DNA of 64,000 nucleotides from Ohtaekwangia koreensis (GTDB taxonomy: Bacteria > Bacteroidota > Bacteroidia > Cytophagales > Cyclobacteriaceae): NCBI RefSeq assembly GCF_900167975.1, contig NZ_FUZU01000004.1, positions 248,001 through 312,000 on the forward strand, written 5' to 3'. The notes beneath the pieces were generated by a model, which was not told where the DNA came from, searched no databases, and saw nothing but the letters and a program-made list of their open reading frames with translations. A program made the position numbers and the translations under genes. This document shows, one piece after another, positions 14,648-17,698 of the stretch (position 1 is its first letter; every line of letters starts with the position of its first letter).

Positions 14648-15739
14648 TTAGTTCTTATATACTTGTACAATGAATACGTAATCTTTCCAACGTTTAATTT
14701 GCTGTACACGATTTGAATTCTTTATCGTATTATACTTTGGAAGTACAAGCGGTCTTTCGAGTGTATCCAGTGAAGCGCGCGTGATCGCATCCATCACTAC
14801 GGATGACTTGATCGCAAAGGCAGCTCCCAATGTCTCTGTCTGAACTCCACTGATAATGCCCACCAGGTCACCGCTTTCATTGAAGAGCGGCCCACCGCTG
14901 TTGCCCGGGTTCACCGGCACAGAGATCTGGTAAGCATTTGGATTCTGACTATATCCCGTAGAAGCGCTGATGGAGCCTTCACCAAAAACTATATCTTCCC
15001 GTGGAAACCCAAGGGTAAATACATGTTCGCCAAGGTTTGCCTCATCTTTCACAATGGAAAATGGAAGTATACGATTGATACCCGTGACAGAATCATTTTG
15101 CAGTTTTAGCACCGCTATATCATTTGCAGGATCGCTCAATACAACTGAAACTTTCTGCCTGCCAAATTTTTCATTCTCGATATAAACTGAATCAGCCTCC
15201 TTTACAACGTGATAGCTGGTGGCCACATAACCGTTGGACGAAATCAGAAAACCTGTACCCGCATATTTACTGGGCACGGGCTTGCCTTTATCTATAGACT
15301 GCGCAATATCTTTCATCAGCATTTTTTGTGAATGCTTGATTTGATCTACATTTCTGCGCAACTCTTTATATATAGCAGTTTGTTTTGTTTCGAGCGCGCG
15401 CGTCATCATCAACGTCCCAACAATACTGATCAGGGCGACAGAAGCGGCAACCGCTGTCATTGGCCAATAGCGTTTCCATCCGCTTACCGGATTTGCCACC
15501 GGCAATGTAACCGGTGCAGTCTCTTCTATATCCAGGTGTGCACTGTCCAATACTGCTTTCAGTTCCATACGATTACCGTAATGCTTCATTGCATCACGCA
15601 TCGTTTTGTGCTGCTCCGCTTTCGCGCGGAAATCCGGTTCATTTTTCAATTTATACTCTACGGCATCGGCTTCATCGACAGATAACTTCCCGGAGAAGTA
15701 ATTGTCCAATAAGTCGTAGAGTGATTGTTCGGCATTCAT
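14648..15739 (-). CDS. Membrane protein: anti-sigma-like N-terminus fused to a trypsin-like (HtrA-type) protease
   Basis: A 363-residue protein encoded with a 4-base overlap after an ECF sigma gene. Residues 1-70 (SLYDLLDNYFSGKLSVDEADAVEYKL and on) look like the short cytoplasmic helical segment of Bacteroidota anti-sigma factors. A single transmembrane helix at about 91-111 follows, then a coiled coil (KQTAIYKELRRNVDQIKHSQ), then an S1C protease fold: His177 (SYHVV), Asp207 (NDIAVLKL) and Ser281 (NPGNSGGPL) form a complete triad, with GTGFLISSNGYVATS at the first strand. No PDZ domain follows; the C-terminus has about 40 unassigned residues. Topology puts the protease outside the cytoplasm. 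The likely role is membrane control of the sigma factor by envelope stress, which is inference. Confidence 0.88.
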   Translation of the reverse strand: MNAEQSLYDLLDNYFSGKLSVDEADAVEYKLKNEPDFRAKAEQHKTMRDAMKHYGNRMELKAVLDSAHLDIEETAPVTLPVANPVSGWKRYWPMTAVAASVALISIVGTLMMTRALETKQTAIYKELRRNVDQIKHSQKMLMKDIAQSIDKGKPVPSKYAGTGFLISSNGYVATSYHVVKEADSVYIENEKFGRQKVSVVLSDPANDIAVLKLQNDSVTGINRILPFSIVKDEANLGEHVFTLGFPREDIVFGEGSISASTGYSQNPNAYQISVPVNPGNSGGPLFNESGDLVGIISGVQTETLGAAFAIKSSVVMDAITRASLDTLERPLVLPKYNTIKNSNRVQQIKRWKDYVFIVQVYKN

Positions 15740-16311
15740 GAGAGGTCTTCGTTTTTATACTTTGCAAAAAATAATTTCTTCAGTCGTTGCAGACATTTAT
15801 ACTTCTGGTTCTTGGCATTATCAGCATTCGTGTATCCGAATTTTTCGCTGATCGCTTCCATCGACAGATCATGTATATAAAAGTCCTCAATAATGCCGCG
15901 GCAAGGTTCTCCAAGGCCGCTCATGGATTCACGCATACTGGCAAACTTATTTTCATTCTCTGCGATGGTGGACATTTCTTCTTCAATACCCAGAAATGTC
16001 TCCGTCTCCTCTATATTACCGTGGTAACGCTTTTTCTCTGCGAGCCGCTTCAGCCACAGCCTGCGGCATACGGCATAGAGATACGTTTTTATTTTACAGG
16101 TAAGGACAAATCCTTGTTGCTGTACTTTCTCGTAAAACGCGATCACAGCTTCCTGATAAACATCCTTCGCTTCCTCCTCCGTACCATTGTTGGAGCGCAC
16201 CAGATTTACAATCATCGGATAATGTGTTTTGTAGAGCTCCCGGAGCGCTACCTCATTTTTCTTTTTGATCTCTGAAACGATCAACTCGTCAAAGTAATAC
16301 ACCACGTTCAA
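15736..16311 (-). CDS. ECF RNA polymerase sigma factor
   Basis: A 191-residue sigma factor. Region 2 is visible as ALRELYKTHYPMIVNLVRSNNGTEEEAKDVYQEAVIAFYEKV (about 20-62) with the following KIKTYLYAVCRRLWLKRL, and region 4 as LGEPCRGIIEDFYIHDLSMEAISEKFGY with a helix-turn-helix, ending in NQKYKCLQRLKKL. It overlaps the protease/anti-sigma gene by 4 bases, so the two are translationally coupled. No ATG is available near the conserved start: the frame opens with TTG at 16311 and GTG codons a few bases on, so initiation is non-ATG or the start is shorter. It is the likely regulator of its own operon, as ECF factors usually are. Confidence 0.92.
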   Translation of the reverse strand: MNVVYYFDELIVSEIKKKNEVALRELYKTHYPMIVNLVRSNNGTEEEAKDVYQEAVIAFYEKVQQQGFVLTCKIKTYLYAVCRRLWLKRLAEKKRYHGNIEETETFLGIEEEMSTIAENENKFASMRESMSGLGEPCRGIIEDFYIHDLSMEAISEKFGYTNADNAKNQKYKCLQRLKKLFFAKYKNEDLS

Positions 16312-16425
16312 TAAGGTCGATTTTATACAAAAGTGCTGCGAAGGTAACCCAAAGAAAAATATCTTTTATGATGGGTGACCTTTTGAATGTTTTTGTATGA
16401 AGGGAAATTTTTAAACCAATAAGTC

Positions 16426-16608
16426 ATGAAAAACACAATCAAATTAGCTTTCGGAGTACTTTGCGTAATCGCTTTGGCATCTTGCGAACCAAAAAAGACT
16501 ACTAACGAAGCTCAGGAAACTGCACCTGCTGCAGATACAACTGAAGTTGCTCAACCTGACACTACTCAAGTAGAAACTCCTGCAGATACTGCAGCTGCTG
16601 CTCACTAA
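16426..16608 (+). CDS. Small Ala/Thr/Asp/Glu-rich lipoprotein
   Basis: A 60-residue lipoprotein: signal peptide with lipobox LASC (Cys at about residue 20), then a low-complexity, acidic and disordered tail of Ala, Thr, Pro, Asp and Glu. No fold is recognisable. It is followed at once by a strong intrinsic terminator, so it is transcribed alone, which supports it as a real and possibly abundant small protein. It is divergent from the ECF sigma gene with about 115 bases between them and could belong to its regulon (inference). Confidence 0.8.
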   Translation: MKNTIKLAFGVLCVIALASCEPKKTTNEAQETAPAADTTEVAQPDTTQVETPADTAAAAH

Positions 16609-16615
16609 AAAATAT

Positions 16616-16649
16616 GCTGATCGGGCTCGATACCCGATCAGCTTTTTTT
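16616..16649 (+). terminator. Strong rho-independent terminator
   Basis: Perfect 10-bp stem GCTGATCGGG / CCCGATCAGC with a seven-base loop (ctcgata) and a run of seven T residues directly after it, eight bases past the stop codon of the small lipoprotein. Confidence 0.93.
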
Positions 16650-16834: not shown

Positions 16835-17698
16835 ATGAAAAATACAGTGTATATTTTCCTGGTATCGTTATGTCTTTTTTCTGCTTGTGGCGCGAAGCAA
16901 ACTTCTATGGAAGCTGCTGACACCATGGACGTTTCTGATGAAAGCCTTCGTAAGGCTGAAACATCGCTCACACAAAATCAACTGGCCGCAACACCGCACG
17001 AAGATCTTTACTCAAATGGAAAAGTAAAGCTCATCAAAACCGTAAACTATAGATTCGAAGTAGAAAATGTAAAGAAGGCTTCTGAAAATATAGAGGCTGC
17101 CATAAAAAAATACCCGGCATATATAGCTTCGTCTAATTTGCGTTTAGAAAATCCAATCCTTGAAAACAAATTATCAATTCGCGTGCAGAGCGAATACTTT
17201 TACGAACTTCTGAAAGAGATTGACAAGCAGCCGCGCTTTGTAAACTTTCGTGATGTTAGTACCAACGATGTATCAAAAGAATTTGTTGATCTGGAATCGC
17301 GCCTGAAAACAAAGCGTGAAGTAGAAGAGCGCTATATGGACATTCTGCGAAAGAAAGCAGGAACAATTGAGGAACTGCTGCACGCAGAACAACAGATCGG
17401 TGAATTGCACGAAGAGATCGAAGCCACCATTAGCCGCATGAATTATCTGAAAGAGCAAGTTAGCTATAGCACTATAAATCTGGAGTTCTATCAAACTGTA
17501 TCAGAGGAAATATCCGCTGCTGATACTATAGGAATGAAAGACAATTTTTTGGATGCATTAAAAACCGGATGGCAAGGTTTGCTCACCGTTATACTTGGCA
17601 TTACCTATATATGGCCTATACTCCTGATTGCAGGATTAACCATTATATACCTGAAGTTCATTCGAAAAAAACAACCGGTGCCCTATAAAGAAATATAA
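16835..17698 (+). CDS. DUF4349 domain lipoprotein
   Basis: A 287-residue lipoprotein with lipobox FSAC (Cys19). The DUF4349 fold is seen in VKLIKTVNYRFEVENVKKASENIEAAI, KLSIRVQSEYFYELLKEI and the long hairpin of helices with EFVDLESRLKTKREVEERYMDIL through GELHEEIEATISRMNYLKEQ. It ends with STINLEFYQ, a transmembrane helix (about 248-272) and a basic tail. The lipid anchor at one end and the membrane helix at the other suggest it spans or bridges a membrane compartment; the family has no established function. It ends in a bidirectional terminator shared with the convergent gene. Confidence 0.88.
   Translation: MKNTVYIFLVSLCLFSACGAKQTSMEAADTMDVSDESLRKAETSLTQNQLAATPHEDLYSNGKVKLIKTVNYRFEVENVKKASENIEAAIKKYPAYIASSNLRLENPILENKLSIRVQSEYFYELLKEIDKQPRFVNFRDVSTNDVSKEFVDLESRLKTKREVEERYMDILRKKAGTIEELLHAEQQIGELHEEIEATISRMNYLKEQVSYSTINLEFYQTVSEEISAADTIGMKDNFLDALKTGWQGLLTVILGITYIWPILLIAGLTIIYLKFIRKKQPVPYKEI

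Follow-up and report, generated by a model that had tools for sequence, protein, structure and literature searches.

In the window analysed here, the whole of a 64,000-nucleotide stretch of the Ohtaekwangia koreensis genome (contig NZ_FUZU01000004.1, positions 248,001 to 312,000 of the forward strand), an ECF sigma factor gene is followed by a gene for a membrane protein with a trypsin-like domain. The locus raises the question of how this sigma factor is held and released, and whether a single protein could be both its anti-sigma factor and the protease that frees it. Only 6% of the ECF sigma factors of Bacteroidetes adjoin a class I anti-sigma domain (PMC7406223), which leaves their control an open question.

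Both genes lie on the minus strand and share four bases (ATGA, 15736 to 15739); the coordinates, strand, reading frames and overlap that had been predicted for them were all right. The upstream gene (15736 to 16311) has a TTG start and encodes 191 amino acids that match Sigma70_r2 of Pfam (8.5e-9) and the sigma70-ECF model TIGR02937 of NCBIfam (6e-20), both above cut-off, so that sigma-70 region 2 and the sigma70-ECF profile place it among the ECF sigma factors; a separate match to region 4 was not found in Pfam. The downstream gene (14648 to 15739) encodes a protein of 363 amino acids, described here from family profiles, an AlphaFold2 model and Foldseek as an anti-sigma factor with a fused HtrA-type protease. 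By sequence, the gene pair forms a single operon.

The AlphaFold2 model of the 363-residue protein, built from 75 sequences (mean pLDDT 86.6, pTM 0.60), has helices at residues 3-15, 21-33 and 35-73, an unbroken helix at 92-148, a trypsin fold from residue 160, a helix at 344-352 and a last strand at 355-361. The first three helices make up the putative cytoplasmic anti-sigma domain (residues 1-73; 15521 to 15739, minus strand, as are all parts of this gene). The membrane helix follows at about residues 92-113 (15401 to 15466), with A98 and A99 conserved in at least 90% of homologues, and is continued outside the membrane by a coiled-coil-like stretch (residues 114-148; 15296 to 15400) and a poorly conserved linker; the one membrane helix and the coiled coil of the original prediction are two parts of the same continuous helix in the model. 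Lys and Arg residues are more numerous before the membrane helix than after it in 84 of the 104 distinct homologues described below, equal in 11 and fewer in nine, and because of this bias an N-in topology is favoured.

The outer part is a trypsin-like (DegS/MucD-like) protease domain (residues 160-320; 14780 to 15262), which matches Trypsin_2 of Pfam (2.9e-23) and, over about residues 150-320, HtrA and DegS profiles. The predicted triad of H177, D207 and S281 is exact when numbered from the ATG at 15739, and trypsin fold, His-Asp-Ser triad and GNSGG motif are all present, as in HtrA-type proteases. Among PDB structures found with the model by Foldseek, MucD and many DegS-deltaPDZ structures ranked first. 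The C-terminal PDZ domain of HtrA proteases is missing, as had been predicted: there is none in the Pfam scan, and none appears in the family lists of 75 homologues at an E value of 0.01. Its place is occupied by a conserved C-terminal tail (residues 321-363; 14651 to 14779) that includes R344, Q347 and V358 and ends in a strand of the form ...F.V.VY. The protein is therefore DegS-like in its protease domain, yet not an HtrA protease in the strict sense. The C-terminal ...VKVY was considered as an OMP-like PDZ ligand and set aside, many homologues having extra residues beyond it and stand-alone proteases without a sigma factor having the tail region in common.

The fusion is not peculiar to this genome. 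A protein search of 59 related genomes gave full-length matches in 14 (its own included) at 39-100% identity, each with a sigma factor gene upstream. In a profile search with a threshold of 1e-40, 109 of 291 genomes from the order had a match, four of them (G238, G227, G168, G064) to the protease part only. Of 395 genomes from the phylum, 37 had one: 29 of these matches were nearly full length and belonged without exception to the same class, and eight covered the protease part only. Named members include Hymenobacter, Mucilaginibacter, Pedobacter, Sphingobacterium and Chitinophaga (at least 13 full-length loci among the 80 matches listed). After 10 duplicates were taken from 114 loci, 104 distinct homologues remained, all from the class Bacteroidia; these counts do not include L095 and L109-L112, which have neither a sigma factor nor an anti-sigma part, or L186-L195, which are partial or stand-alone proteases, L189 among them being a 133-residue fragment with a 99-residue sigma factor piece 861 bases upstream. 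The system is widespread in environmental Bacteroidota, usually in one copy per genome.

Linkage to the sigma factor gene is almost without exception. It stands directly upstream in 103 of the 104 distinct homologues, counting one locus with a broken sigma reading frame (L053); the exception (L206) begins 166 bases from the end of its contig. By comparison, none of 21 other HtrA-type loci evaluated in this and related genomes had a sigma factor gene within about 1.5 kb on either side (a 22nd, L007, fell below threshold and was left out). Linkage in 103 of 104 together with the uniform architecture rules out a chance association or a mis-called fusion. Moreover, the 14 of the 59 relatives whose best sigma factor scores 268-314 bits are exactly the 14 that encode a protein of this type, so that the sigma clade and the protease-fused protein co-occur strictly, both being present in 14 genomes (this one included) and neither in 45; the next sigma factor in any of those 14 genomes scores about 190 bits. 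Pairwise distances over 102 loci correlate equally between the sigma factor and the N-terminal part (r 0.82) and between the sigma factor and the protease part (r 0.82), as would be expected for joint inheritance, which is no proof of contact.

The catalytic His, Asp and Ser are intact in all 104 distinct homologues, which rules out, for the homologues studied, a degenerate protease that serves only as a binding domain. Given an intact triad in 104 of 104 and a sigma factor gene upstream in 103 of them, selection seems to be maintaining the catalytic activity. That the triad never varies is an argument for the importance of this activity; the substrate could be the anti-sigma factor itself, a client or the lipoprotein described below.

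Other Bacteroidota encode stand-alone proteases with the conserved C-terminal region but with neither an anti-sigma part nor an adjacent sigma factor gene (L095, L109-L112 and several of L186-L194). Several have an apparent signal peptide; in L186, L187 and L109-L112 the C-terminal region stands in the place of a PDZ domain, and some are joined to other N-terminal parts, reaching 912 amino acids. Proteases of this kind may be the source of the fused domain.

Whether the N-terminal segment is an anti-sigma domain was approached from several sides. Residues 9-122 match the NCBIfam 'anti-sigma factor' model NF052375 (E 1.8e-5, under the model's own cut-off), and NCBIfam anti-sigma matches were obtained for nine of 20 N-termini, below cut-off where shown. 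A PDB sequence search with the N-terminal profile gave no anti-sigma factor among the best 60 of 125 matches, which look spurious. Membership of the RseA family is not indicated, there being no RseA family among the listed matches and the protease being fused.

A further comparison is with 16 sister gene pairs of Bacteroidota (L313-L328), which have the next-closest sigma factors (168-183 bits to the sigma profile), the same gene order, a membrane helix recognized by eye and, in 14 of 16, the same kind of promoter. In an hhalign comparison, the N-termini of this family (20 sequences) aligned with those of the sister proteins (15 of the 16 were used) with a probability of 99% and an E value of 2e-18, so that the N-terminal helical domain is homologous to anti-sigma domains by way of these sister proteins, which themselves count as anti-sigma factors only by position and resemblance. 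The sister proteins differ in having another outer domain (FHYQF..KLYLYGDF..YEI) in which no protease was seen, and no Pfam or NCBIfam family scored above cut-off in the three of 16 that were scanned. With homologous N-termini and different outer parts, the two families share a Bacteroidota chassis on which the protease has replaced an outer domain of another kind.

Structure prediction is in keeping with these comparisons. In one locus (L055), adjacent in-frame genes were read through the stop codon and modelled as a single chain of the sigma factor and the first 119 residues of its partner, with pLDDT 89.3 and pTM 0.81. Since the sigma factor accounts for only 193 of the 329 residues, a pTM of 0.81 suggests that the anti-sigma domain is confidently placed against it, a judgement made from pTM. 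The PDB chains that rank highest with this joint model are mostly sigma factors from anti-sigma complexes (AlgU-MucA, RpoE-NepR, sigmaE-RseA and BldN-RsbN), the matches being weak (best E 2e-3) and the overall superposition poor.

In three genera of family f11 (g70, g77 and g102; L080, L081 and L176-L182), the sigma factor and protease are kept and the first 40 or so residues of the anti-sigma domain, its first two helices, are gone; another genus of that family, g107 (L212), retains them. By eye, the truncated proteins still have the helix that bears the conserved residues R57 and L64.

The original prediction is supported in part. Its central claim, that the second protein is an anti-sigma factor with an HtrA-type protease for its outer part, is well supported by sigma linkage, N-terminal homology to the sister anti-sigma factors and strict co-occurrence. 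The search for the same fusion in other genomes yielded the 104 Bacteroidia homologues, and among these the refuting case, an N-terminal segment without relation to anti-sigma domains and without linkage to sigma factor genes, did not arise. Contact with the sigma factor, approached indirectly through the joint model, is suggested by its pTM of 0.81. The further proposal of self-cleavage or direct proteolytic stress sensing may be right: the catalytic residues are invariant and the genome encodes an RseP-type site-2 protease, but the linker showed no conserved cleavage site and the genome has separate HtrA proteases as well.

A divergent promoter pair and a small lipoprotein gene, of which the original prediction made no mention, adjoin the operon. 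A promoter-like site (GGGTTAC...GTATAA; 16323 to 16350, minus strand) precedes the sigma factor gene, and a mirror-image site (GGGTGAC...GTATGA; 16373 to 16400, plus strand) precedes a gene for a PG1828-like lipoprotein of 60 amino acids (16426 to 16608, plus strand), with a lipobox recognized by eye and a tail rich in Thr, Ala, Glu and Asp; a terminator-like hairpin follows (16616 to 16649, plus strand). The consensus of such sites is GGTTAC-N15/16-GTATnA. In a search region of up to 360 bases upstream of the sigma factor gene and 40 bases within it (less in three loci), the pattern GGTTAC-N13/20-GTAT[TAG][AG]A was found in 86 of 103 loci; the mirror-image site, for which a slightly looser pattern was used, was present in 56 of the 103. 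Across 30 dinucleotide shuffles, each pattern was matched in at most one locus of 103. The distance from the end of the -10 element to the first possible sigma start codon has a median of 12 bases (quartiles 3 and 14; n 86), so the sigma factor transcript may be nearly leaderless.

Each of the 56 mirror-image sites is followed by an open frame that encodes what is by eye a small lipoprotein of roughly 56-92 amino acids, with a lipobox and a low-complexity tail rich in Thr, Ser, Asp, Ala, Val and Glu. Nine of ten that were scanned match the PG1828-family model NF050142 (E 9e-4 to 6e-13), their maximum of 49.2 bits falling short of its cut-off of 50 bits, and they are accordingly called PG1828-like. 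The sigma operon and the divergent lipoprotein gene have one promoter type in common. Small lipoproteins of some lineages (L258, L280, L287, L293 and others) have VDSAAAK-type repeats ending in Lys, and one scored weakly on an Lpp/OprI model. As many as three copies can stand in tandem, and each then has a motif to itself.

Genome-wide scans with a strict motif (GGGTTACCN{13,14}GTATNA, with the reversed pattern as control) were made in 30 genomes that have the system and lack a mirror-image site by the looser pattern used above. There were 32 matches against eight for the reversed pattern. Of the 32, 21 precede a small lipoprotein gene (13 no more than about 3 kb from the sigma locus, eight elsewhere in the genome), two a DUF4349 lipoprotein gene (PF14257), two a sigma factor gene and seven nothing of these types. 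Fourteen of these genomes have a match before a small lipoprotein gene and 13 have no strict match; a scrambled decoy pattern gave seven matches, none of them before such a gene. In 30 genomes without the system, the strict motif was matched three times against 14 for the reversed pattern, never before a lipoprotein gene, 28 of these genomes belonging to other genera of the window's own family; the two genome groups differ in kinship. A looser pattern, applied to the 59 relatives, gave 39 matches against 22 for the controls in the 14 that encode the protein and no excess over the control columns in the 45 that do not. Fifteen regions from the looser scan, picked by eye, comprised small lipoproteins in five (L252, L253, L260 and L261 at unlinked sites, and L258, a second tandem copy), a DUF4349 lipoprotein in one (L259) and other genes or nothing in nine.

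Downstream of the small lipoprotein gene of the window, beyond the hairpin that stands between them, is a DUF4349 lipoprotein gene (16835 to 17698, plus strand; 2.9e-45), in front of which the strict motif has no match. In three other genomes (L259, L282 and L283), DUF4349 lipoprotein genes away from the sigma locus also have the motif, a hint that in some Bacteroidota DUF4349 serves as an envelope-stress effector. For the window's own genome, a large regulon is not supported: there are seven motif matches, the divergent pair included, against six for the control. Because the promoter of the sister sigma factors is nearly the same, motif sites could be readable by either sigma factor, and cross-talk is possible.

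From these features we infer a self-contained ECF sigma/anti-sigma switch in which the anti-sigma factor would supply its own site-1 protease by self-cleavage, a reading to which we give a probability of roughly 0.5. At rest, the N-terminal domain would keep the sigma factor at the membrane while the outer protease is latent, the conserved C-terminal tail serving as regulator in the place of the absent PDZ domain. An envelope signal sensed by the protease domain or the tail would switch on the active site, and the protease might then cut the juxtamembrane linker of its own chain or of a neighbour within an HtrA-like oligomer. An RseP-type site-2 protease, such as the one encoded in this genome (PF02163, 5.9e-67), would next cut the membrane helix and free the sigma factor, which would raise expression of its own operon, of the PG1828-like lipoproteins and, in some genomes, of a DUF4349 lipoprotein; the small lipoprotein may in turn influence the protease. 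Across homologues, the linker (residues 141-160) showed no conserved cleavage site. It is a tentative extension, with the odds well against it, that this is a widespread envelope-stress system of Bacteroidota in which sensor, site-1 protease and anti-sigma factor are one self-cleaving protein for which the lipoprotein, of PG1828 or Lpp size and with its V/A/T/S/D-rich tail, is substrate or decoy, reporting on lipoprotein transport or the state of the outer membrane.

Release without self-cleavage is conceivable, and we regard it as possible, if rather doubtful: the protein would be a membrane quality-control protease that also holds the sigma factor, a misfolded or mislocalised client would loosen the anti-sigma domain by way of the coiled coil and membrane helix, and the active site would degrade the client. 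An active site invariant in 104 of 104 homologues is expected of a working quality-control protease, the autoregulated operon would increase the supply of protease, and the single continuous helix of residues 92-148 connects the inside with the outside. There is less precedent, however, for a signal that crosses the membrane through a single helix with no cleavage. Among membrane anti-sigma factors of ECF sigma factors, the best known is RseA, and its release is by proteolysis only (PMC8103513).

Alternatively, the cut could be made by a separate DegQ/HtrA-like enzyme, the fused protease being an effector or processing the divergent small lipoprotein. The genome encodes six other HtrA-type proteins (PF13365), which could carry out site-1 cleavage, and the co-regulated lipoproteins have V/A/T-rich tails of a kind often cut by HtrA enzymes; yet a fusion and a triad kept in 104 homologues would be an odd way to tie an unrelated effector to a sigma factor, and we consider this arrangement unlikely. 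That the N-terminal segment is no anti-sigma domain at all, the genes being linked for some other reason, is very improbable: family scores under curated cut-offs, the f11 members of three genera without the first helices and the PDB search that gave no anti-sigma factor among its best 60 of 125 matches would speak for it, but the likeness to sister N-termini (anti-sigma factors only by position and resemblance), the NCBIfam matches in nine of 20, the sigma adjacency and the joint model speak against it.

The self-cleaving switch proposed here is made of known parts. In the RseA/DegS/RseP-sigmaE system of Escherichia coli and the MucA/AlgW-AlgU system of Pseudomonas aeruginosa, as here, a membrane anti-sigma factor holds an ECF sigma factor, and the components include a serine protease with the DegS/MucD fold and a site-2 protease of the RseP type. 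In those systems the anti-sigma factor is a protein distinct from the DegS or AlgW protease, which senses through a PDZ domain (PMC8103513, PMC8545111). Here, in contrast, both are one polypeptide, and no PDZ domain is listed for 75 homologues, so that the arrangement is like RseA fused to a DegS without PDZ. Self-cutting has parallels as well: RsgI of Clostridium is a self-cleaving anti-sigma factor, in which the cleavage is a step towards release, and the cell-surface-signalling anti-sigma factors of Pseudomonas reportedly cleave themselves (Bastiaansen 2015). In neither is a trypsin-like protease domain known to make the cut. The protease of BlaR1 is a metalloprotease. In the BlaR1/BlaI system, the membrane sensor's own protease domain is freed by autocleavage and controls transcription, acting in the cytosol on a repressor (PMC7593790); no anti-sigma factor is involved, unlike here. 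Dma1 and Dma2 of Bacteroides are Bacteroidota-specific anti-sigma factors with a large extracytoplasmic part that span both membranes, and, unlike the protein studied here, they have no protease domain that is mentioned in the accessible portion of that account (PMC13088901). A search of the open full-text literature turned up no account of an ECF anti-sigma factor with a fused trypsin-like domain; the main ECF reclassification, which lies outside that scope, may list the fusion.

For the Bacteroidota, the finding offers a widespread and testable system in which an anti-sigma factor has an intact DegS-like protease and a defined promoter, and the small predicted regulon would be a ready readout. 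If the protein does cut itself, a single molecule would combine two steps of the textbook RseA-DegS cascade, that of the anti-sigma factor and that of the site-1 protease.
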